Assembly: GCA_003697105.1 (NCBI GenBank)
Contig: RFFQ01000186.1
Span: forward strand, 1-51,145
DNA from: Gemmatimonadota bacterium
GTDB taxonomy: Bacteria > 4572-55 > J002
DNA length: 51,145 nucleotides
Direction: 5' to 3'
The translations under genes and the position numbers were made by a program. The notes below the pieces were generated by a model. That model was not told where the DNA came from and searched no databases. It saw only the letters and a list, made by a program, of their open reading frames with translations. Below are positions 926-42,655 of the stretch, piece by piece. Every line of letters begins with the position of its first letter. Within the stretch, counting starts at the first letter, position 1.

Positions 926-2620
926 GGGATGGTTCATAAACCGCTAGAAATTAGTAGACACTTTTTTGTACCTTGAAAAAAGAATAGGCCGCTGTTCAAG
1001 CAGAAGCGGGGACGGCAAACAGGGCGTCAAATGCGCCGGCCAGAGAATGGGCCTCTTTGACCCCGGCTAACTGCAACGGGCTGGAACCGGCCCGCTTGCC
1101 TCGGGAAAAGACGTGATGGTTCCAGAACAACTGCAGCAGGGGGAGCAGCCAATCCGGCGTGCCGCGATGAATGGACAGGTAAGGACGCAGCCAACTATGC
1201 AATGATTCGGCCAGAGATGAACTGCGGTGGAAAAGAGCAAGAGCATCCCAGATGGCGGTTGCCGTTCTCTGCCACTGCGGGGGGATGGTTTCCAGTGACC
1301 GGATACCGTTTTGCCAGGCGGCCAGAATCCAGGCTAGCAAATCGGGGGGAAGATTTTGGCACCAGGGTGTCAGGGTTTCATGAAGCCAGCGCAGGGGGGC
1401 GAGCAGTTCATCGAGGTGATTCTGCAGGTACCGGACAAAATCAGCGATGCGTTCGCCGGGCAAGGTTTGGAGTAACTCAATGGCGACTTCCGAAGTTTGC
1501 CGTGCCTGATGCGGGTCTTGCAGGCGGTGAAATTTGGTAATCGGCTCCAGCGCCTGACGGACTTCGGCCAGCAACCAGGAGAAGTGCTCGTAGGTGGCAA
1601 TCGCCTGGGTCTCCTGCTCAATGGCTTCTTCTGCAGTCAAATCGACTTTCAGGGGACGGCCTCGCCGCCTGGTGGGTTGGCTGGCTTCTCGCTCGGCTCG
1701 AATAGCCTTTTCGGCCATGCCGATGGCTTTGTAGCCCGCCTTTTCCAGCCGACTTTCCAGTTTCTTGCCATCCCGCAGCAGGTGAAACAAGTCCGGGCGC
1801 AGGGGGACGGCCAGATCCGCTTCTTGCAGCCCCGCACGAATGCCGCGGGCGCCATCAGCCGCCACGTCTTGAAAGACCACGCCCCGGGCATCCAAATCCA
1901 GAAACGTCAATCCCCAATGGGTGGCATCTCGGCTCTCAGCAGCGGCCAGGTTGAGCGCCAGAAATGAGCGGCCATCCACCACCGTCAAGCAAGGCTGACG
2001 TCCGGCGAAGATTTCGTCCGCTTCGCCCAACACCGGCAGCGGCACGCGCACCCCCTCATTGTGTGCTTTCGCCGCTTCACCGGCTGCCTGCAGGGTTTGG
2101 CTGATATAGCCGACCGACCGGTGGACACCGAACAGCAATTCCAGGCCAATCTGAATATTGCGCACCGACCCGGTCAGCACAGGCATCACCGCAATCGCTT
2201 TGCGCACTGTATCCCGGTCAACCCGCAGAAATTTCTCTTCCGCTGGCCGTCCAACCGCTTTCGGCTTCAAGGCTTCTTCCAGCGCTGCTTGCACTCGATC
2301 CTTGAAACGGTACAGCAGGGCGCGGGAGATGCCATATTTATCTGCTAATTCACTCGCCCGGCCCCAGCCTCGTACTTCGGCTGGCAATAACATCTCTATC
2401 CCAATCGCAATCCGGGTTGACAAATCCAGGTCTTTTCTACGATACTCTGACATGGGGAGCCTCCTTTTGGTTCGACACGTTTTCTCAACCCCTATTTTGC
2501 CAGATAAGGGGGCTCCCTGCAACCTATTCTTTTGGTAACGTTCTGTTGACGAGGCATTCTATATGGCCGCTGCCCGTTCTGTTTGGACACCAATGTGTCT
2601 ACTTATTTGTGAACCATCCC
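926..2620. mobile_element. Complete insertion sequence, 1695 bp, family not assigned
   Basis: Both ends begin GGGATGGTTCA (926-936, and its complement at 2610-2620). A second matched block, AGTAGACAC, follows inside each end (953-961 and the complement at 2595-2603), with a 9-base length difference between the blocks. The element is flanked by an 8-bp direct duplication, TAAAAACC. It carries a single transposase gene on the minus strand. The frame is intact and the duplication exact, so insertion is probably recent. The 8-bp duplication and GGG ends do not let me assign an IS family with confidence. Confidence 0.88.
996..2453 (-). CDS. DDE-type transposase of the insertion sequence
   Basis: Encodes a protein of about 485 residues that should cut and join the ends of the surrounding element. 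The ATG at 2453 (MSEYRRKD) is preferred over the longer frame because AAAGGAGG sits just upstream. Residues 30-52 look like a helix-turn-helix (ASELADKYGISRALLYRF). Candidate acidic catalytic residues are D160 in CLTVVDGRS, an Asp in the PDLFHLLRDG region (about 221-228) and the Glu of SSSLAESLHSWLRPY near the C-terminus. The last block is followed by WNHHVFSRGKRAGSSPLQLAG, a C-terminal pattern I associate with transposases common in Planctomycetes and related bacteria. The gene fills most of the element and no frameshift is seen. The transposase assignment is firm; the catalytic triad is inferred by eye. Confidence 0.85.
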   Translation of the reverse strand: MSEYRRKDLDLSTRIAIGIEMLLPAEVRGWGRASELADKYGISRALLYRFKDRVQAALEEALKPKAVGRPAEEKFLRVDRDTVRKAIAVMPVLTGSVRNIQIGLELLFGVHRSVGYISQTLQAAGEAAKAHNEGVRVPLPVLGEADEIFAGRQPCLTVVDGRSFLALNLAAAESRDATHWGLTFLDLDARGVVFQDVAADGARGIRAGLQEADLAVPLRPDLFHLLRDGKKLESRLEKAGYKAIGMAEKAIRAEREASQPTRRRGRPLKVDLTAEEAIEQETQAIATYEHFSWLLAEVRQALEPITKFHRLQDPHQARQTSEVAIELLQTLPGERIADFVRYLQNHLDELLAPLRWLHETLTPWCQNLPPDLLAWILAAWQNGIRSLETIPPQWQRTATAIWDALALFHRSSSLAESLHSWLRPYLSIHRGTPDWLLPLLQLFWNHHVFSRGKRAGSSPLQLAGVKEAHSLAGAFDALFAVPASA

Positions 2621-4354: not shown

Positions 4355-6372
4355 GCCAAACGGATGAAAATTCCCTAAATGTGCCTCCGCAAAACAAGCG
4401 CCTGACCAAAACACGGAAAATTACGTTAGATGATGCCTTACCCTCCTCTGAGAAGACACCGGAAAAGGAGTGTAAAACTGGCTGGAAAGTGCTGATCGTC
4501 GATGATGAAAAAGACGTACATGAAGTGACACGTTTGGCGCTCAATTCCTTTGTCTATCACGAAAAACCCATCACCTTTTTGGATGCCTATTCGGCTCAAG
4601 AAGCCAAAGGTTTGATCCGGCAACATCCCGATACCGCGATCATTTTACTGGATGTGGTGATGGAGACCCCCCATGCCGGTTTGGATTTTGTAAAATTTGT
4701 GCGGCAGGATTTGCAAAATACCGTTTCACGCATCATTCTGCGCACCGGACAGCCGGGTCAAGCTCCCGAAAAAGAGGTCATCCAGCAGTATGAAATTGAT
4801 GACTATAAAACCAAAACGGAATTAACCCTTGATAAGCTCTTCACCGCCACTACCGCCAGCCTGCGCACCTATGATGCGATGCTTTCGTTGGAAACTCACC
4901 GGCAAAAGCTGGAACAAGAGGTGAAAGCCCGGACTCGTGAACTGGAGTCCCAAAACCAAAAGCTCTCCGAGACCCTCAAAGCGCTGGAAATTGCCAAAGC
5001 GGCGGCAGAAGCGGCAAATCAAGCAAAAAGTGAATTTTTGGCAAACATGAGCCACGAACTCCGTACCCCGCTGCACGGGATTTTAGGATACGCCCAAATT
5101 CTGCGCCGAGACCGCACCCTTGGCGAGCGACAACGGCACAATGTGGCGGTTATTGAGCAGAGTGGGGAGCATCTCTTGGCACTCATTAACGATATTTTGG
5201 ATCATTCCAAAATCGAGGCGGATAAATTTGACTTGGAACCCTCGGAGTTTCATTTGGGAGAAATGTTAAAAAGCGTGGCGGAGATCATCCGCATTCGAGC
5301 CGAAGAAAAAGGATTGGTGTTTACCTTTCGGGATTCCCCAGAAGCACATCAAATTGTGTACACCGATGAGAAACGACTCCGGCAGATTTTGCTCAACCTG
5401 TTGAGTAATGCCGTCAAATTTACGACCACCGGTGAAGTCCGGTTGATCGTACAGCCGGAGCCAAATGGCAATCGAATGCGGTTTCAGGTGGAAGATACCG
5501 GTATCGGCATCCCGCCGGATCAGCTTAATGTGATTTTCCAGCCCTTTCAACAGGTCAAAAATCCACAATTACCCCGTCCGGATGGCACGGGGTTAGGGCT
5601 TTCCATCAGTTATCGCTTGGTGGAAAAAATGCAGAGCCAATTGGCCGTGAAAAGTACACCCGGTGTCGGCACAACCTTTTGGTTTGACCTCCCATTGGTA
5701 CACGTTTCTGTTCCCATCCGCCCACCCGCCACCGATGGCGTTACCGTGACCGGCTATGAAGGTCACCGTAAAACCATTTTAATTGCCGATGATAAGGAAC
5801 AAAATCGAGCCGTGTTCAAGGAGTTCTTACTCAACCTTGGGTTTGAGGTGTTGGAAGCCGCCAACGGGCGAGAAGCGATACAACGTGCCCTTGCCCATAC
5901 ACCCGACCTTATTTTAATTGATTATGTCATGCCGGAACTAAATGGGATCGAAGCAACCCGCCAACTGCGCCAACACGAATCCTTAAAAGAGACGGTCGTG
6001 ATTATGATGTCTGCTAGTGTGTTTGATGACAACCGTGAGGAGAGTCTTCACGCCGGTTGTAATGATTTTATTAGTAAACCCGTCCGCTTTGAACATCTGC
6101 TCAATCTCATCCGAAAATATTTGCATCTCGAGTGGAAATATGACAATGTCAGTACCTCACAAGAGATAGAACTCATTTATCCACCTTATGAATATCTGAA
6201 AAAAATATACGATCTGGCAAGTATGGGAAATCCCGCCCGAATTATCTCCTTACTGGATAGTATTGAGCAGTTAGATGATGCGTACCATCCATTTACCCAA
6301 TATGTTCGCCATTTAGCGCGTTCCTTCCAGATGAACCACATCTGTGAGTTGATTGCTCCTCACCTCAATTGA
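4351..6372 (+). CDS. Hybrid histidine kinase, REC-HisKA-HATPase-REC with helical tail
   Basis: A 673-residue cytoplasmic phosphorelay protein. Domains: N-terminal receiver (about 46-165, phospho-acceptor D101 in LLDVVME), coiled coil (185-225), HisKA with H235 in [11 protein letters not shown], HATPase (N-box near 349-356, G1 EDTGIGIP at 381-388, G2 GTGLGL at 412-417), and a second receiver (about 474-590, D524 in [10 protein letters not shown], conserved Lys K576). The tail of about 80 residues begins at IYPPYEYL and is all helical. The N-terminal receiver resembles those that precede DUF3369-type linkers, where D101 can accept phosphate from a partner kinase. The gene starts inside the stop of the upstream kinase. 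No DNA-binding output is present. The tail may act as a phosphotransfer or docking module, but no HPt His motif is evident. Confidence 0.9.
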
Positions 6373-7681: not shown

Positions 7682-7710
7682 TTGACCGCCGCACCTCCTT
7701 GCTATATTCT
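7682..7710 (+). promoter_or_regulatory. Probable sigma-70-type promoter for the heptose genes
   Basis: TTGACC (7682-7687), 17-base spacer, TATTCT (7705-7710). It lies 46 bases before the ATG of the heptose kinase. Four to five of six bases match in each box. Confidence 0.4.
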
Positions 7711-7755
7711 AAGCGACCCATATCGTTTTTGTCTCACTTTGTACAGGATGTTAGA

Positions 7756-8748
7756 ATGAATCGAACCACTGCGCAGCGTATTTTAGCTGAATTCAAACAG
7801 AAAAAGGTTATTGTCATCGGAGATGTGATGATCGATGAGTATATTTGGGGCGATGTTCACCGCATTTCGCCAGAAGCGCCCGTACCGGTGATCGAGATGC
7901 AAGGTACGACCGTACGGCTCGGCGGGGCGGCAAATGTTGCCCATAATATCGCGGCGTTGGGCGCCACGCCTATTTTGATCGGCATTATCGGTGATGATGA
8001 TGGTGCCCGCATGTTGATCGATTGTGTCACGGAAAATCAGATGAGTGCCGCTTATCTCATCTCGGATGCTTCCCGTCCCACGACCCGAAAAACCCGCGTG
8101 ATTGCCCACCAACAGCAAGTGGTACGCATCGACCGGGAAAGTACGAACCCTATTTCCGAAACAGTCCGGCAGGATGTTTTGGCACAATTTGAAGCACAAA
8201 TTCAAGATGCCGATGCCGTGTTGATTCAGGACTACAACAAAGGCTTACTCACCCCCGATTTGATCGCATCCATTATCCAGAAAGCACGGGACGCTGGGTG
8301 TTTTATCTCCGTTGACCCCAAATTTGAGAATTTTTTCGCTTATAAAGGGGTGAATCTTTTCAAACCGAATCTACGGGAAGCGGAAACCATGCTCGGTATG
8401 AAAATCCGTGAAAATCAGGATGTCAACCAGATGGGGCGGCGGTTGCTGGAGCAGTTGGAGTGCGATATGGTACTCTTAACTCAAGGTCCCAATGGAATGA
8501 CCCTTTTTGAGGGGGAAAATTTCATTACTTATATCCCCACTGTCGCGCGGGAAGTCTTTGATGTCTCTGGGGCGGGTGATACGGTCATTGCCACCACAAC
8601 GCTGGGGTTGACCACCCACGCTACCCCCGTGGAAGCGGCGGTTCTCGCCACCCATGCGGCAGGGATTGTCATTGGCAAAGTGGGTATTGCGCCGATCCAG
8701 TGGGAAGAGTTGCAACAAACCTTTAGCGAGGACGACAATGGTGATTGA
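7756..8748 (+). CDS. rfaE1: D-glycero-beta-D-manno-heptose-7-phosphate kinase
   Basis: Phosphorylates heptose 7-phosphate at C1, a step towards ADP-L-glycero-D-manno-heptose for the LPS inner core. The 330-residue protein is a PfkB/ribokinase-fold sugar kinase: N-terminal [13 protein letters not shown] and LGGAANVA, and the C-terminal SGAGDT anion-hole/catalytic-Asp motif (DVSGAGDTV). It corresponds to the N-terminal half of E. coli HldE and to stand-alone RfaE/HldA. The ATG at 7756 ([10 protein letters not shown]) matches the usual start; upstream codons in frame (from 7699) do not look like family sequence. It overlaps the next gene by 11 bases, so kinase and adenylyltransferase are coupled. 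Its presence is strong evidence for an LPS-bearing outer membrane. Confidence 0.93.
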
Positions 8749-10741
8749 TTTGCCTGCACTGCTAAATATCCGGCAAGAACTCGCTACCGCCGGTAAAACG
8801 GTCGTGTTTACCAATGGATGTTTTGATATTTTGCACCGGGGGCATGTGGACTATTTACAAGCCGCTAAAGCCCTGGGTGATGTGCTAATCGTGGGCGTCA
8901 ACAGTGATGCCTCTGTCCGGCGTCTCAAAGGTGAATATCGTCCCATCGTCCCGCAAGCGGACCGGGCTTTCATTTTGGCGGCACTTAAACCGGTTGATTA
9001 CGTGATCCTTTTTGAGGAAGATACCCCAGCAGAGTTGATCCGGAATATCGTACCGGATGTTTTGGTCAAGGGTGGTGATTATCCCATTGATCAGATCGTT
9101 GGGCGAGAGATTGTTTGGCAACACGGTGGGGAAGTAAAAACAATCCCACTCACGGCGGGTCGTGCCACAACCAATATCATTGAAAAAATTCGCCATATCT
9201 ACCATTCAACAGAGGGAGGTCGCATGTCTTATTTCGCCACTATCGAGAGTCTCGTTAAACAGGGCACCATTGAATCCGTGCTAAAACGTGGCTCGACTAA
9301 CAAAGAGGCTATCAAAGCCTTGCAGCAACTGCTTTTCCAACTTGGGTTTGGAAATGAATTGAACTGGGATAAATATGGTGCTGATGGTGATTACGGTGGC
9401 AGTTCCACGGCGGCGGTCAAAGCGTTTGCCGCTAAAAATGGAATTTCTGCTTCTGGTGAAGTGGTAACCACCACCATTGGACAAAAACTTTTGGATCGAT
9501 ATGCCATTTTAGATGACCTGCGCCACCTGAAAAGTGCGATTGACAAAGGCAAAGTGGAAGCCTTTCTGTATCGCGGTTCACCCCACAAAGAGGCGGTCGT
9601 TGCGTTGCAGACGTTGCTGAATGAGTTGGGTTATGGTGAGGAACTTAACTGGGATAAATACGGTGCTGATGGCAGTTATGGTGGCAGTTCCACGGCGGCG
9701 GTCAAGGCGTTTGCCGCTAAAGAAGGTTTTAGCAGTGATGGTACGAAGGTCACGGCGGCAATGGCACAGCGTATTGTCGATAAGCTTAGCACCTATTATG
9801 GCGATGGTTGGGAGGGTAGTGAGGTGGCGGTTCGTAGCGGTTCCGGTGACCTGACCATCAAGGAATATACCCGGCGGGGTCGCCAGCGCGTCTGTATCTC
9901 TGATGGTTCGGTGGAAAAAGAGTTTGTTAAATTTAAAAAGGGTGTTTACACCTATGGTAATCAAAAGGCGATTGATGTGGTCAATGCCAATCGGTCGCAA
10001 TTGACCCAACTGGGGCTAACGGATTCTGCCCTCAATGTGATGGTGGCTGTTTCGGAAAATGAAGGTAATCTCGATGCAATTAACACTTGGGATAACTCGT
10101 TCATGACGTTTGGTATGTTTCAATGGACGGTTGGCGCCCGAAATGACCCGGGTGAGCTGCCGGCACTTGTCAAAAAGATAAAAGATAAAGATGCGGCAGT
10201 TTTTCAAACCTATTTTGGCCAACATGGCTTGGATGTCGTCAACACGGATGCCATTTCTGGCTATTTTACCTTGAACGGTCACAAAATTGGCTCCGCGAGT
10301 GAAAAAGAGCGTTTTCGCACCTATGAATGGGCGTTTTACTTTTGGAAGTCCGGGCAAGACCCGCTGGTGCAAATGATCGAAATTCAACATGCCATGTCCC
10401 GGATTGATACCTTTTACCGTGCCCCTGCTTATAAAGTAAAAGGGTATTTTATCGCCGATTTGGTCACCTCCGAATATGGTGTTGGGTTGCTTCTGGATAA
10501 TCACGTCAACCGTCCCGGCTATGTGAAAGGGTGTCTGGAAGAGGCTCTGAAGCAAACCGGTTTGAGTAATCCGGCGGGATGGGGTACTGCCGAAGAGCGG
10601 CAGTTGATTGAAGCCTATCTTAAGATTCGCGAAACCTACGGACGTTATCCCATGACGCACGCCAGTAAACGGGCGGCGGTTACGAAAAAATATCTGGATA
10701 ACGGCACGATTTCAGATGAACGACATTCCTTTCAGTGGTAA
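8738..10741 (+). CDS. rfaE2: Heptose-1-phosphate adenylyltransferase read in frame into a peptidoglycan-binding, lysozyme-like protein
   Basis: Residues 1-162 are a complete heptose-1-phosphate adenylyltransferase, which transfers AMP to heptose 1-phosphate. It has [13 protein letters not shown] with the HxGH nucleotidyltransferase motif, LVKGGDY, and the usual C-terminus TNIIEKI. Stand-alone RfaE2 ends there at about 160 residues, but no stop codon occurs. The frame continues for 505 residues with two peptidoglycan-binding-type repeats and a lysozyme-like C-terminal domain. An ATG at 9224 after GGGAGG offers an internal start. The start at 8738 has GAGG upstream and overlaps rfaE1. Either this is a true fusion, a lost stop with two products, or a sequencing indel. 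A cytosolic LPS enzyme fused to a wall-acting domain makes little sense topologically, which favours two products. Confidence 0.8.
9224..10741 (+). CDS. Tandem peptidoglycan-binding domains plus lysozyme-like domain (probable independent product)
   Basis: Starting at the internal ATG (9224) with GGGAGG at 9214-9219, this gives 505 residues. Two repeats of the peptidoglycan_binding_1 type occupy about 10-92 and 105-188, each with [23 protein letters not shown] and [10 protein letters not shown]. After a linker (195-260) comes a domain with [14 protein letters not shown] and [10 protein letters not shown] (about 278-304). Its E-x-x-G plus FQW layout resembles lysozyme-fold hydrolases, with E278 or E280 as candidate catalytic acid. 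No signal peptide is seen, so export would need a holin, a contractile/type VI-like system, or cell lysis. No secretion genes are nearby. The fold call is inference; the repeats are plain in the sequence. A hairpin terminator follows. Confidence 0.7.
9362..9436 (+). repeat. First copy of a 75-bp intragenic repeat
   Basis: This 75-base block encodes NWDKYGADG...[10 protein letters not shown] of the first peptidoglycan-binding repeat. It matches 9647-9721 at 69 of 75 positions, with a long identical run of 27 bases or more in the centre. Identity is much higher at DNA level than across the rest of the two domains, which suggests recent duplication or gene conversion. Confidence 0.75.
9647..9721 (+). 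repeat. Second copy of the 75-bp intragenic repeat
   Basis: Second copy, 285 bases downstream of the first and in the same frame, so recombination between them would delete exactly 95 codons and leave a one-repeat protein. Confidence 0.75.
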
Positions 10742-36513: not shown

Positions 36514-38445
36514 TTACTCCTTTTTTAATTTTTCTTCGATTAAGTAGCCCGCGATTTTCATAAAGTCATGCTGGGTCACAATGCCCACCAGTCGCCCGTC
36601 GGAAACAACCGGTAGGCAGGAGACCCGTTCTTGTTTCATCAGGTCAATTGCATCTAAGGTGTGGGTTTCTGGGGAGACGGTGGGCATATCGCGCCGCATC
36701 ACTTCGCCCACCGTGACAGAAAGGAAATTCTCGCATTCAAAATCTCGTTGCAAAATATAGCGGATCAGTGTTCGGAACGAGATTAGCCCGACGAAATTGT
36801 GGTTATCATCTTCTACGGGGACATGCCGGATGTGATGCCACTTCATCAGGCTAATGACCATTTCGAGCAGGTCATCTTCATGCACGGTGAACAAATCCCG
36901 CGTCATATACTGTTCAACCTGAGCATAATGGTATTTCCAACTCTCATCTGAAGGTTCTAACTCTGCCAATTTCCACTCATGAACGGGTATTCCCTGTTTT
37001 TGGTATTTGATCATGGCTTGGGTCAGGGTTGCTAGACATTCTTCGGTAGTCCCTTCATCTTTCATTTGTCCGAACGAGTGAATTTGCCATTTGCAGCCGG
37101 TTTGAAAGGCATTAACGCGCTTTTCAATAACGCCCAAATAGCGATCAATATCCGCTTGATCAATCTCGGCACTTTCCAATCCCTTTTGCGCTAAGGGTAG
37201 GAGCTGGTTGATCAGCTCTTTTGCCGGTATAATCTTTTGGTCGAACCACACAAATTGCGAGTCCAACCCCCGCCGGGCGGCGGCGACAAAATTCCCTTTT
37301 ACATCATCAAAATCCATAAGGTCTTTTACCTTATCGCCGTATTTCCAGTCGATTCCGTTGATCAATCCAAACCAGAACGCGGCATTTGCGACTTCGTCCA
37401 GCACGGTGGGTCCGGCGGGCAACACGCGGTTTTCAATCCGCAGGTGGGCTTTACCATTGGTGATGCCGTAGCAGGGGCGGTTCCAGCGATAAACCGTGCC
37501 GTTATACAATGATAACGCTTTGAATTTGGGTAATTCTCCCCGCTTTAAAATATCAAACGGATTATCTTCCAGATCGCCATGTAAGATGGCGCGGCGGCGC
37601 GAAATATCCTCTTGGAAAATTTCCAATACCGATGTTTCCACCCAGCGGTCACCAAAATTAACCCGTGGATTTTGCTCCCGGAACGGCGTTTGAGGGAAGT
37701 TGCGTTTATCAACCGATTGTTGGAAGACGGCGATACGGGTTTCACACCACAACCGTTTACGGAACAAAAACGGGGAATTGGTGGCAACCGCCATCACCGG
37801 CGCCGTGACCAATTGGGTGATGTTGTACAACCGGGCAAATTTTGCCGGTGATACCTGAAAATGGACTTGAAAACTGGTATTGCAGGCTTCCAGCATCAGG
37901 GAATCATGACGGATGTGCAGTTCGTCAATCCCTTTTAAGAAGAACTCGAAGTCCGAGCCGCCACGCAAACGGTTTAGGGCGTTGTTGAGTTCAAAGTAGC
38001 GCGGATTATCGGTCATATTTTCAAGGGTTAAATCGGATTTACGCACCGTGGGTAGCGTGCCACTCAATACAATATCTGCTCCGAATTTTTGGGCGGCTTG
38101 CCGGGCGTTATCAATGTAGGTATTTAAGTTGGTTTCCAGTTGTCGCAAGCAGTCTCCCCCAAAGTCGATCGGGTCTAAGTTGAATTCAATATTGAACTTA
38201 CCGAGTTCGGTGGTAAAGTGGGGGTCACTTAATTCCGCGAGTACTTCCCGGTTAATCATGGCGGGGCGTGCCGCCTGATCGACTAAAAATAATTCTTGTT
38301 CGGCACCAATCCGGTGGACATCCGATTCAATCAGACCGGCGTTTAACATGTATTCAAATGCCCGAACATCCTCCAATAAGGCTCGGGTAAAATCGCGCAG
38401 ACCTTCTTGATTCTCAGAACTCGTCTTGATATTATGATCGCCCAT
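36514..38445 (-). CDS. Glutamate-cysteine ligase (GCS2)-like enzyme with C-terminal CBS pair
   Basis: A 643-residue fusion. The N-terminal part (about 40-450) is a GCS2/YbdK-type carboxylate-amine ligase: GAEQELFLVD, LGKFNIEFNLDP, ACNTSFQVHFQV and the ATP-site region RIENRVLPAGPTVLDE. The C-terminal 130 residues (from YMTRDLFTV at about 512) are two CBS motifs that usually bind adenine nucleotides and act as an energy-state regulator. The product is an amide between a carboxylate (perhaps Glu) and an amine (perhaps Cys); the true substrate is unknown. AAGGAG precedes the ATG at 38445. The next gene is the M14 enzyme. Confidence 0.9.
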   Translation of the reverse strand: MGDHNIKTSSENQEGLRDFTRALLEDVRAFEYMLNAGLIESDVHRIGAEQELFLVDQAARPAMINREVLAELSDPHFTTELGKFNIEFNLDPIDFGGDCLRQLETNLNTYIDNARQAAQKFGADIVLSGTLPTVRKSDLTLENMTDNPRYFELNNALNRLRGGSDFEFFLKGIDELHIRHDSLMLEACNTSFQVHFQVSPAKFARLYNITQLVTAPVMAVATNSPFLFRKRLWCETRIAVFQQSVDKRNFPQTPFREQNPRVNFGDRWVETSVLEIFQEDISRRRAILHGDLEDNPFDILKRGELPKFKALSLYNGTVYRWNRPCYGITNGKAHLRIENRVLPAGPTVLDEVANAAFWFGLINGIDWKYGDKVKDLMDFDDVKGNFVAAARRGLDSQFVWFDQKIIPAKELINQLLPLAQKGLESAEIDQADIDRYLGVIEKRVNAFQTGCKWQIHSFGQMKDEGTTEECLATLTQAMIKYQKQGIPVHEWKLAELEPSDESWKYHYAQVEQYMTRDLFTVHEDDLLEMVISLMKWHHIRHVPVEDDNHNFVGLISFRTLIRYILQRDFECENFLSVTVGEVMRRDMPTVSPETHTLDAIDLMKQERVSCLPVVSDGRLVGIVTQHDFMKIAGYLIEEKLKKE

Positions 38446-38657: not shown

Positions 38658-38686
38658 TTGACAGCCAATCCAGAGGGGGATATATT
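38658..38686 (+). promoter_or_regulatory. Promoter for the tandem UspA gene
   Basis: TTGACA (38658-38663), 17-base spacer, TATATT (38681-38686). Eleven of twelve consensus bases match. The start would lie near 38693, about 60 bases before the ATG. Confidence 0.7.
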
Positions 38687-38752
38687 CCGTCACGAATGAG
38701 CGAAATGAGCGTTTTACCCCCAATACGCAATTCCAATAGAGGATACCTCATC

Positions 38753-39670
38753 ATGGAACGGTATGAACGTCTGTTAGTTTGTCTGGAATTGGCTGTTGAA
38801 CCGGTGGACCAAGCCATTATTGAATACACTGCCAAAATTACCCGGATGGCAAAATCAAAAACGGTTTATTTTATTCATGTCGTGCCTACCTTTGATCTTC
38901 CGGCAGACTTGATCGAAACGTATCCCAACTTGATGCCGGTCGATGAAATGGAAATCGCCCTGCTTCAAGACCGGGTAAACGCCTTTTTCGGGACGGCTTA
39001 TCCCGAAACAGACATCCAATTCGATGTGTTAGAAGGGGAAACTGTGACAGAAATTCTCCGCTATGCCAAAAACAAGTTGATCGACCTCGTTGTGCTGGGC
39101 AAGAAAAAAGCGGATCATCATGTGATTGTCACGGAAAAAGTGACACGGAAATCTCCTTGTTCGGTGTTGATCATCCCGGAAGGGTGCGGTACGGCACTCC
39201 AACAGATTTTAGTACCGGTTGATTTTTCACGTTATTCAGAAATTGCCTTAAATGTTGCCATTGAATTTGCCGCGGCGGTACATCCCCCTGCCCAAATTCA
39301 GGTCGCGCATACCTACGATGTGCCGGCAGGATACTACAAAACGGGAAAAACGTATGATGAATTTGCTGCAATCATGGCAGAACATGCTCGGGAAAAATAC
39401 CAGCAATTGATTCAGCGGGTTGACGTGCAGGGTATCGCGGTACAACCGGTATTCAAGTTGGATTCCAATGTGGTCAACAGCATCGAAGCCCTACTCACCC
39501 AAGAAAAGAGCGACCTGCTGGTGCTCGGTGCGCGAGGTCAAACCGATCCGGCATCATTGATACTCGGTAGTAAAACCACCAAGTTGATCCGGCAAATTGA
39601 AATCCCAATGCTGGTGGTGCGGGAAAAAGGAGATCGGGTGCATTTACTAGAAGCCCTGCTTCAAATCTAA
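38753..39670 (+). CDS. Tandem-domain universal stress protein
   Basis: A 305-residue cytosolic protein with two UspA folds (about 5-140 and 143-290). The second keeps the ATP-binding signature G-x2-G-x9-G-S (GARGQTDPASLILGSKTTKL); the first has a degenerate form (LGKKKADHHVIVTEKVT), so only the second half is likely to bind nucleotide. Start at ATG 38753 (MERYERLLV) with GAGG upstream; codons before it in frame are AT-rich leader. It has a near-consensus promoter and lies beside the GCS2-CBS gene and a B12-binding regulator, suggesting a stress-response block. Confidence 0.92.
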   Translation: MERYERLLVCLELAVEPVDQAIIEYTAKITRMAKSKTVYFIHVVPTFDLPADLIETYPNLMPVDEMEIALLQDRVNAFFGTAYPETDIQFDVLEGETVTEILRYAKNKLIDLVVLGKKKADHHVIVTEKVTRKSPCSVLIIPEGCGTALQQILVPVDFSRYSEIALNVAIEFAAAVHPPAQIQVAHTYDVPAGYYKTGKTYDEFAAIMAEHAREKYQQLIQRVDVQGIAVQPVFKLDSNVVNSIEALLTQEKSDLLVLGARGQTDPASLILGSKTTKLIRQIEIPMLVVREKGDRVHLLEALLQI

Positions 39671-39699
39671 AGGTGACGGGACCCAGCACAGACCTTATT

Positions 39700-39733
39700 G
39701 GCACTAACTTTTACATTGACACTGGCAAGTGCC
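39700..39733. promoter_or_regulatory. Inverted repeats over the regulator promoter (candidate operator)
   Basis: GGCACT (39700-39705) is mirrored by AGTGCC (39728-39733). Inside, CACTGGCAAGTG (39720-39731) forms a tighter 4-bp repeat with a 4-base centre, placed in the -35/-10 spacer. Such placement suits a MerR/CarH-type repressor acting on its own promoter. Confidence 0.4.
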
Positions 39734-39744
39734 TTTCATATAAT
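39716..39744 (+). promoter_or_regulatory. Perfect consensus sigma-70-type promoter
   Basis: TTGACA (39716-39721), 17-base spacer, TATAAT (39739-39744): all twelve consensus bases match. The start would be near 39751, only about 11 bases before the ATG at 39762. Confidence 0.85.
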
Positions 39745-39761
39745 CCCCCCACGGAGTACTC

Positions 39762-40619
39762 ATGAAAACCGAAGTGGCGTATTTCAACAGCCGTGAAGCC
39801 GCTCAAATTTTAGGCGTTAATGTTTCATCCGTAAAGCGTTGGACGGATGAAGGTAAACTGGAATGTATCCGCACTCTAGGCGGCCACCGCAAATTTATGG
39901 TGCGGCATCTATTAGACTTTTTGAAAAAGCACCGCCGCAAAACCTCCCAAGTTAATCTAACACCTATTGAGAGTGAAGCCGATCTGGAACTCCGGTACCA
40001 TATGTTTCGCCGGAATTATGAAGCCCTGATTCCACCTATTTATGAGCACGCATTTGAATGTCATCGGGATCAGCTTCAGCAAATATTGAATGAGCTTTAC
40101 CTGAGCCAATGTCCCTTGGCGGAAATTTACGGGGATATTCTAACGCCAGTATTGCACAAAATCGGTCATGAATGGGAGCAGGGGCGGATTTCGATCACGG
40201 AAGAACACATTGCCACCCAGACCATTCGGGATAGTATTATTCGGTTGCGGGGAATTATTCAGATACCCACTGCGAAAATTGGTAAAGTCCTCTCCCTCAA
40301 TTTATCCCATGAATTGCATGATATTGCCCTAAAGATGACCGAACATCTTTTGGAAACCAAAGGATTTGAGGTCTTTTACTCCGGTCAAATAACACCAACG
40401 ATCCACCTAGCACACGTTTTTGAGCGATACCAACCGGATCGATTGTATATTTCAAGTACGGTGGCGAAGGCAGATACGACCCAACAAGAACTAGACCGTC
40501 TATTTGCGTTATGTGAGGCGCACCATTGTGAAGTTTATGTCGGGGGGACCGGCTTTGACGCCCTTCAATACGATCATCCGGCAGTGATCCGACGAATTTA
40601 TCGCTTTCAGGATATTTAA
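39762..40619 (+). CDS. MerR-type regulator with cobalamin-binding domain (CarH/LitR-like)
   Basis: A 285-residue transcription factor. The N-terminal helix-turn-helix (about 7-55, NSREAAQILGVNVSSVKRWTDEG) is of the MerR/excisionase kind. A helical cap (75-165) has W138 in EWEQGRISITEEH, and the cobalamin-binding domain (175-285) has H186 in ELHDIALKM. In CarH, Trp and the His of E/DxHxxG contact adenosylcobalamin, and light breaks the complex. Here the motif Gly is Ala (E-x-H-x-x-A). It has a perfect promoter overlapped by inverted repeats, which suggests autorepression. Light, cobalamin or oxidative sensing is inferred from family. GGAG precedes the ATG. Confidence 0.85.
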   Translation: MKTEVAYFNSREAAQILGVNVSSVKRWTDEGKLECIRTLGGHRKFMVRHLLDFLKKHRRKTSQVNLTPIESEADLELRYHMFRRNYEALIPPIYEHAFECHRDQLQQILNELYLSQCPLAEIYGDILTPVLHKIGHEWEQGRISITEEHIATQTIRDSIIRLRGIIQIPTAKIGKVLSLNLSHELHDIALKMTEHLLETKGFEVFYSGQITPTIHLAHVFERYQPDRLYISSTVAKADTTQQELDRLFALCEAHHCEVYVGGTGFDALQYDHPAVIRRIYRFQDI

Positions 40620-40645
40620 CCATTACTTAGGATAAACCAATTATT

Positions 40646-42655
40646 ATGCCGCGATTGACCGTCAATTTAAGTGATGGACTTCAAAAAGTTTACGAGCTTC
40701 GGCAGGGAACAACGACGCTGGGTCGCGGAGCATCCAATGACATTATTTTGAGTGACCCCACCGTCTCCCGCCGGCACGCCCGGATCGAATTAGATAATAA
40801 TCAGGCCGTTCTGGTGGATCAGGGTAGTACAAGTGGGACGTACCGGAACGGTGTTCGGATTGAGCGCGAATCGCTTGCCCATGGGGACATCATCAAATTG
40901 GGGAGTGTGACCGCCCAGTATGACTCCGAACTGATGAAAGTAGTGGAATTAACCACCCGTACCTATACCGCTTCTGGATTAACCCATTTCGCCATTGATC
41001 GCCCCTCGTCCCTTGATGATTCCCGCTCCACATGGGGCGCCACGGCTTCTACCCACCTTGACCCCAATTCCCGCAATTACCAGCGAAAGCTGGGTATCCT
41101 CCTAGATGTCAGCCGTACCTTGAGTTCTGGATATTATAAAGTAGATGACCTGTTGCATCACATTATTGATCTACTCTTCCAGATCATGAGGATTGATCGT
41201 GCCGTGATTTTGCTCCACGATAAAACCACCGATGAATTAATACCCCGAATCTGTCACCCCGAGTTGGTAAGTAAGGAAGACGTCCATTCGGAATTGATCA
41301 TCAGCCGTACCATTACCCGCAAAGTTTTGGAAGAAGGGGTCGCGATCTTGACCTCCGATGCCAGAGCCGATGAGCGGTTTGATGACGCTCAAAGTATCGT
41401 CTCGCAGGCGGTTCGCTCAGCGATGTGTGTCCCGTTGCAGGCAAAAGAGACTGTGGTCGGGGTGCTCTATGTGGATAATCTGGGTGACCCTGATTGTTAT
41501 AATGATGACGATCTGGAGTTCCTAGCGGCATTTGCCAGTCATGCTGCTATCGCGCTGGAAAATGCCAATCTCTACGAAGCTACCGTCAATATGAAAAACT
41601 ACGTAGAGAACATTCTGCAAAGTATTACCAACGCCATTATCGCCATTGACTTGAATGGGATAATTACCCAAGTCAATCTGGAAGCCGAGCGAATCCTAAA
41701 AATGAAAAGCGATGCCTTGGTTGGGACCCAGTACGCCCAAGTTCCCCATCTGGATCAGTTACAACCCTTTTTGGAGCAAGCTTTGCAAGAAGGTCAGTTT
41801 GTCAACCACGTGGAAAGCAAATTTGTATTAGGTCTCGATCTCGAATTGATTCTGGACTTGGGAACACACCCCTTACGTGACCGGAACGAGCAAACCATTG
41901 GTGTGTTGCTGGTGTTTCGAGATGTAACGAAATTGAAATTGATGGAAGAGGGACTCCGCCGGGCAGACCGGCTGGCTACGATTGGACAGATGGCGGCGGG
42001 GATTTCCCACGAAATCCGCAACCCGCTAACCTCAATCAAAGCTTTTAGTGAGCTTATCTATCGTGATGCTGCTGAAGAGAGCCGCCAACGCCGGTTTGCC
42101 AGTATCGTGGTTGAGGAGGTTGACCGCCTGAACGGTATTGTAGAAGGGTTGCTCTCTTTCGCCAAAGAGGGGAAAGGTACTTTTGAGCCTCAGGATGTGA
42201 AAACCATTCTGGAAGAGACCTTGCGGTTGGCAAAAGAACCAATCATGAAAAGCCGGATTGAAGTCATCAAGCACTACGAAGATGACTTACCACTGATTCC
42301 GGCCGATAAAAACAAATTAAAACAAGTACTCCTTAATCTGATCCTCAATGCGGTGCAAGCGATGAAACCCAATGGGACACTAACACTCTCGCTCTCTGCG
42401 GAAAACCTGAATCCCCGCCTCAACACTGCCGCCGTCATTATCGCTATTACCGACACGGGACCGGGTATCTCTCACCAACAACAGGAAAAGATTTTCGACC
42501 CCTTCTTTACAACCAAGCGGGAAGGTACCGGTTTAGGGCTTGCCATTACCCAACAAATTGTAAAGAGTCATGACGGTTTCCTCGAACTGGAAAGCGAAAT
42601 GGGCGTTGGGACAACCTTCCGGGTGATTTTACCACAAATGAATCCCTCAGAATAA
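40646..42655 (+). CDS. FHA-GAF-PAS sensor histidine kinase
   Basis: A 669-residue soluble kinase. Domains: FHA (about 1-95, TLGRGASNDIILSDPTVSRR and HARIE), linker, GAF (about 145-310, CVPLQAKETVVGVLYVDN), PAS (about 320-430), HisKA with H455 in AGISHEIRNPLTSIKA, and HATPase (N-box LNLILNAVQAM, G1 TDTGPGIS, G2 GTGLGLAI). The kinase core is of the NtrB/AtoS type. The FHA domain would bind a phospho-Thr protein, linking this kinase to a Ser/Thr kinase elsewhere. It lies 26 bases after the B12-type regulator and is likely co-transcribed. No cognate response regulator is adjacent. Confidence 0.93.
   Translation: MPRLTVNLSDGLQKVYELRQGTTTLGRGASNDIILSDPTVSRRHARIELDNNQAVLVDQGSTSGTYRNGVRIERESLAHGDIIKLGSVTAQYDSELMKVVELTTRTYTASGLTHFAIDRPSSLDDSRSTWGATASTHLDPNSRNYQRKLGILLDVSRTLSSGYYKVDDLLHHIIDLLFQIMRIDRAVILLHDKTTDELIPRICHPELVSKEDVHSELIISRTITRKVLEEGVAILTSDARADERFDDAQSIVSQAVRSAMCVPLQAKETVVGVLYVDNLGDPDCYNDDDLEFLAAFASHAAIALENANLYEATVNMKNYVENILQSITNAIIAIDLNGIITQVNLEAERILKMKSDALVGTQYAQVPHLDQLQPFLEQALQEGQFVNHVESKFVLGLDLELILDLGTHPLRDRNEQTIGVLLVFRDVTKLKLMEEGLRRADRLATIGQMAAGISHEIRNPLTSIKAFSELIYRDAAEESRQRRFASIVVEEVDRLNGIVEGLLSFAKEGKGTFEPQDVKTILEETLRLAKEPIMKSRIEVIKHYEDDLPLIPADKNKLKQVLLNLILNAVQAMKPNGTLTLSLSAENLNPRLNTAAVIIAITDTGPGISHQQQEKIFDPFFTTKREGTGLGLAITQQIVKSHDGFLELESEMGVGTTFRVILPQMNPSE

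Follow-up and report, generated by a model that had tools for sequence, protein, structure and literature searches.

A putative cobalamin-responsive CtMerR-type repressor and its candidate 9-bp direct-repeat operator in a Gemmatimonadota bacterium

In a 51,145-nt contig of a Gemmatimonadota bacterium (RFFQ01000186.1, the whole of which is called the window below), the gene for a B12-type transcriptional regulator lies between a gene for a tandem universal stress protein (USP) and one for a sensor kinase. This raises the question of what kind of regulator it is, at which DNA site it acts, and whether light or cobalamin could set the expression of its neighbours. A first-pass annotation had proposed a CarH/LitR-like autorepressor, acting on inverted repeats over its own promoter and coupled to the kinase.

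Layout of the locus and its promoters

The features of the locus are collected in Table 1. As the first-pass annotation had noticed, the promoter adjoining the regulator gene (P2) is perfect and the leader is very short, with 17 nt between the -10 element and the ATG at 39762. The exact P2 string occurs six times in the 4.18-Mb genome, versus none for the reversed control, which is more than chance and makes P2 likely to be a real promoter. A second promoter, P1, precedes the USP gene, and the sole copy in the window of the operator described below is found about 11 nt after its -10 element. Because this operator directly follows P1, the likely transcription unit comprises the USP, regulator and kinase genes and is autorepressed from there. 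The USP gene would then be co-transcribed with the regulator, against which counts the 91-nt gap between the two genes, containing P2. A short ATG at 38696, upstream of the USP gene, translates the operator as MSEMSV, and the Usp-like start is at 38753.

Table 1. Features of the locus, with positions in the window
Feature	Position	Strand	Basis
Promoter P1, TTGACA-17-TATATT	38658..38686	+	11 of 12 consensus positions; ahead of the USP, regulator and kinase genes
Candidate operator, AAAACGCTC ATTTCGCTC A, two 9-bp direct repeats	38697..38715	-	Perfect motif match, directly 3' of P1
Tandem USP gene, two Usp domains	38753..39670	+	PF00582, 1.8e-31, two stretches
Inverted repeat GGCACT-N22-AGTGCC (39700-39705 / 39728-39733)	39700..39733	.	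Not significant, P = 0.27
Promoter P2, TTGACA-17-TATAAT, adjoining the regulator gene	39716..39744	+	12 of 12 consensus positions; no conserved operator copy
Regulator gene, 285 aa, BldC-type HTH, B12-binding_2 helical bundle and B12-binding Rossmann domain	39762..40619	+	Pfam/NCBIfam, 8JBS match
Sensor kinase gene, FHA-GAF-PAS-HisKA-HATPase, 669 aa	40646..42655	+	Pfam

Other genes of the window were also recorded. Divergent from P1 is a gene (36514-38445, minus strand) whose product combines a GCS2-like domain (glutamate-cysteine-ligase family 2) with two CBS domains in a fusion; an AstE/AspA-like gene comes next. Further away, one gene joins a cytidylyltransferase-like domain to peptidoglycan-binding repeats and an extended C-terminal region (8654-10741, plus strand; overlapping an upstream kinase-like gene at 7699-8748), and a 508-aa transposase-looking protein (996-2522, minus strand) has no Pfam match at 1e-5.

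Family and cobalamin site of the regulator

The regulator carries HTH_17/MerR and B12-binding_2 Pfam domains, plus a B12-binding domain below threshold (25.4 bits versus a cut-off of 32.1), the latter counting against the assignment proposed here. Its top PDB sequence match is 8JBS (3.1e-32), which is also the top Foldseek match (TMt 0.83, rmsd 1.9-2.1 Å) of its AlphaFold2 model (pLDDT 89.4, pTM 0.78). The 8JBS and 8JBT entries are CtMerR of Chloracidobacterium thermophilum, which binds adenosylcobalamin and responds to green light with a tetramer-to-monomer transition (PMC11796333). CtMerR and the regulator have in common their architecture, the W, EH and ligand His residues, a DxHxxA-type motif and the type of operator, as seen at the 75-76% orthologues of CtMerR; they differ in overall sequence (about 31% identity), in the His that replaces Gly in the GxxH motif of the regulator, and in its neighbours, a stress protein and a kinase. 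The regulator thus displays both features that define the CtMerR type in this work, namely a BldC-type HTH joined to B12-binding_2/B12-binding with 8JBS as nearest relative, and a perfect copy of the 9-bp direct-repeat operator, which was itself derived in this analysis. In a short-search tree, it groups with proteins of Calditrichota, Fidelibacterota and KSB1 (support 87-92, none starred), outside the groups formed by CtMerR and by the planctomycete proteins.

Of the CarH/LitR-like, B12-type label given earlier, the B12 part stands, since CtMerR is the best match in sequence and fold, the ligand residues are kept, and a cobalamin adenosyltransferase and a cobalamin riboswitch are present in the genome, but the CarH/LitR part does not. 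The CarH proteins and LitR (Thermus, Bacillus, Myxococcus) share with the regulator an HTH followed by a B12 helical bundle and a Rossmann domain, the Wx9EH motif and the ligand His; in contrast to it, they have a classical MerR DNA-binding domain, a bis-His partner (H132, Glu in the regulator) and operators made of 11-bp nnnnTnnACAn repeats (PMC9304148). Identity with CarH was rejected on the score for the CarH equivalog NF052513 (54.7 bits versus a curated cut-off of 400), the BldC-type DNA-binding domain and the different operator. The BldC family model NF033787 also scores below its cut-off (42.4 versus 77 bits); this family consists of short proteins devoid of a sensor domain, and the regulator has 285 aa with B12 domains. 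The class II LitR PmlR2 resembles the regulator as a light-linked MerR-type repressor with a B12-like domain, but it binds TGTACA-type sites and works with a LOV partner (PMC9758184). Overall, the regulator is likely a CtMerR-type B12 repressor with autoregulation, and not of the CarH kind.

The cobalamin-binding Trp and His reported by the first-pass annotation are indeed present, as W138, E148-H149 (Wx9EH) and H186, and so is the Ala that it saw in place of a motif Gly (Ala189). With respect to the SignatureFinder pattern for light-responsive cobalamin domains, the regulator contains GxxW (G135 and W138), EH (E148 and H149) and GxxxP (G208 and P212), and reads HxxH at the GxxH position, with His183 for Gly and the ligand His186 kept. 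GxxH is a published light signature, and the cobalamin-site residues have been described for CtMerR (PMC11796333); His183 therefore counts against the CtMerR-type explanation. The position of the second axial His of CarH (H132), next to the Trp, is occupied by Glu139 in the regulator and by Arg in CtMerR. B12 sensing by the regulator is likely; light sensing is unproven.

The operator and its DNA code

The predicted operator, a 9-bp direct repeat (AAAWCGYTCAAAWCGYTCA), was first spotted as repeated CGCTCA upstream of orthologues. The search was then extended to 80 homologue loci covering several phyla. There, the pattern CGYTCANNNCGYTCA is found 35 times in the 55 kb ahead of the regulators and a single time in the remaining 700 kb; these loci were chosen by HTH similarity, so that shared DNA specificity is expected and they are not independent draws. 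The reversed pattern is absent both upstream of the regulators and elsewhere. A perfect operator is present in 31 of the 80 loci, and one with at most one mismatch in 52; pairs of CGYTCA on the same strand peak at a spacing of exactly 9 bp (35 pairs, with no other distance exceeding 4), and 36 operator sites give the consensus AAAWCGYTCAAAWCGYTCAT. The loci with an operator belong to Calditrichota, KSB1, Fidelibacterota, Acidobacteriota, Planctomycetota, Verrucomicrobiota and Rhodothermota. Upstream of two Chloracidobacterium orthologues of CtMerR (L041, 76% identity; L042, 75%), a perfect CGCTCAAAACGCTCA is found at about 4904-4919, approximately 100 bp from the gene and adjoining a promoter-like site, and is consequently the predicted DNA target of CtMerR. 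An operator or DNA target of CtMerR was not found in the text of PMC11796333, nor was a published copy of the operator strings in the literature library searched.

In the whole genome of the organism, only two sites perfectly match a stricter form of the pattern, one being the site downstream of P1. The strict pattern was also run on 59 other genomes, with 12 matches (six in one tandem array) versus 5 for the reversed control, so that single perfect matches elsewhere are not individually convincing. The second perfect copy of the genome (C113:12674; L138 1503-1517) is located between marR and a gene for an HlyD-type efflux adaptor, and a copy with one mismatch (C186:75923; L142 1503-1517) lies 49 bp upstream of dxs, involved in isoprenoid precursor synthesis.

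The motif can be compared with the binding rule of Streptomyces BldC, a 68-residue protein that binds head to tail on 9-bp direct repeats, each AATTXXXX(C); its Arg30 recognises the YpG step facing the C, and His46/Arg47 lie in the minor groove of the AT-rich part (PMC5859096). The operator unit, AAAW-CGYT-C(A), consists of an AT-rich four, a four-base spacer and a C, then an A that creates TpG on the opposite strand; its sequence fits the BldC rule in unit, 9-bp period and head-to-tail orientation. R26, W27, H42 and R43 of the regulator align with BldC R30, W31, H46 and R47 and are invariant in 28 homologues. The likeness between the two proteins thus covers DNA-binding residues and the direct-repeat rule, and their difference lies in the B12 module of the regulator, as BldC has no sensor domain.

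Gene neighbourhoods differ among the homologues. In a Calditrichia (Calditrichota) contig (L032; JANQQU010000084.1, 138-5867), a close orthologue is divergent from genes for lycopene cyclase, two CrtI-type oxidoreductases and phytoene synthase, with the TTGACA-17-TATATT promoter form and the 9-bp operator (CGCTCA repeats) at both the crt and the regulator promoters; this is the classic light-carotenoid setting. In L035, the regulator precedes polyketide-cyclase-like, NmrA/epimerase and DUF1295 genes. Among 109 neighbouring genes at the 31 loci with a perfect operator, 15 encode sigma-70-type factors and 12 DUF1731-epimerases. The same operator is found in L046, L075, L077, L084, L089 and other planctomycete loci, many of whose regulators are divergent from a sigma-70-type factor and a DUF1731-epimerase.

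Signal, output and meaning of the switch

In our view, the regulator is probably a CtMerR-type repressor that responds to cobalamin and acts at 38697-38715 on the USP, regulator and kinase genes. Loaded with adenosylcobalamin, it would form a CarH/CtMerR-like tetramer whose BldC-type DNA-binding domains would occupy the two 9-bp repeats in a head-to-tail arrangement. As the operator adjoins the predicted transcription start of P1, transcription of the three genes would be blocked. If adenosylcobalamin were lost, either because light cleaves the Co-C bond or because the cofactor runs short, the tetramer would be released, allowing induction of the stress protein, of the repressor itself (a negative feedback) and of the FHA kinase, while P2 would ensure a basal supply of regulator and kinase.

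The site and the extent of this regulation could be understood otherwise. The first-pass annotation had the regulator repress its own gene by binding inverted repeats at 39690-39750. A perfect 6-bp inverted repeat does straddle P2, but 6-bp arms arise within 30 nt in 27% of 2000 dinucleotide shuffles of the same intergenic stretch, i.e., at chance level, and the family of the regulator uses direct repeats, of which P2 has none; the inverted repeat was rejected as an operator, and this model is scarcely credible. CarH-type tandem 11-bp repeats are likewise absent from P1 and P2, where TnnACA copies are only 6 or 17 bp apart. The idea of an autorepressor nonetheless remains likely, a B12-type autoregulator being well supported, and what was misplaced is its operator, the conserved repeat standing one gene further upstream. 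The kinase has the announced FHA, GAF and PAS domains, followed by HisKA and HATPase, and begins 26 nt past the regulator stop, a gap that suggests co-regulation. The proposed kinase circuit is real as a gene pairing here but is not conserved: an FHA-GAF kinase adjoins the regulator in none of the 80 homologue loci, so that a conserved pairing was rejected and the operon appears lineage-specific. In 115 other genomes, the kinases most similar to it show no match over the FHA part. The absence of a conserved pairing would agree with the kinase being an unrelated gene that merely lies on the same strand, outside the regulated unit, which we nevertheless find rather unlikely given the short same-strand gap, with no terminator-like site listed in it. 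The kinase as an output of the switch is unproven.

The nature of the signal is more evenly balanced. It is quite possible that the same repressor and operator respond to cobalamin supply or redox state (AdoCbl versus OHCbl) and not to light, in an organism living in the dark. The genome (96.9% complete) encodes a cobalamin adenosyltransferase and other B12-binding proteins and has a cobalamin riboswitch; neither phytoene synthase nor photolyase was detected in it, which removes its carotenoid and photolyase genes as evidence for light, and the GxxH signature of the regulator is incomplete. Against this speak the response to green light of CtMerR, the nearest solved relative (PMC11796333), and the carotenoid genes beside the Calditrichia orthologue. 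A more radical proposal is that the regulator no longer binds cobalamin and works as an apo-protein or via a partner, as do CarA or class II LitR. The planctomycete homologues aligned here have Tyr, Ser or Thr in place of the ligand His and keep the same operator, and CarA and PmlR2 offer precedents for such a mode of action (PMC9304148, PMC9758184). The operator alone is hence no proof of B12 sensing, and DNA code and B12 use have been separated in evolution. Such a loss is decidedly improbable for the regulator itself, in whose own clade none of W, E, H and the ligand His has been replaced.

Returning to a cobalamin-responsive repressor of the CtMerR type, the data suggest that a tetramer under ligand control has been combined with head-to-tail DNA binding of the BldC kind. 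More tentatively, CtMerR-type sensors may form a separate lineage of B12 regulators whose members, in several bacterial phyla, recognise 9-bp direct repeats in the manner of BldC; in the lineage of this bacterium, the switch would have left the pigment genes and come to control a stress protein and a phosphothreonine-reading kinase, the level of phospho-signalling then being set by cobalamin state or light. The most useful result is the operator code of the CtMerR-type class, which sets this class apart from CarH. The 9-bp operator is an orderable sequence that can be directly tested with both CtMerR and the regulator, provides a compact element for gene switches driven by green light, and predicts regulons in Calditrichota, Acidobacteriota and Planctomycetota.
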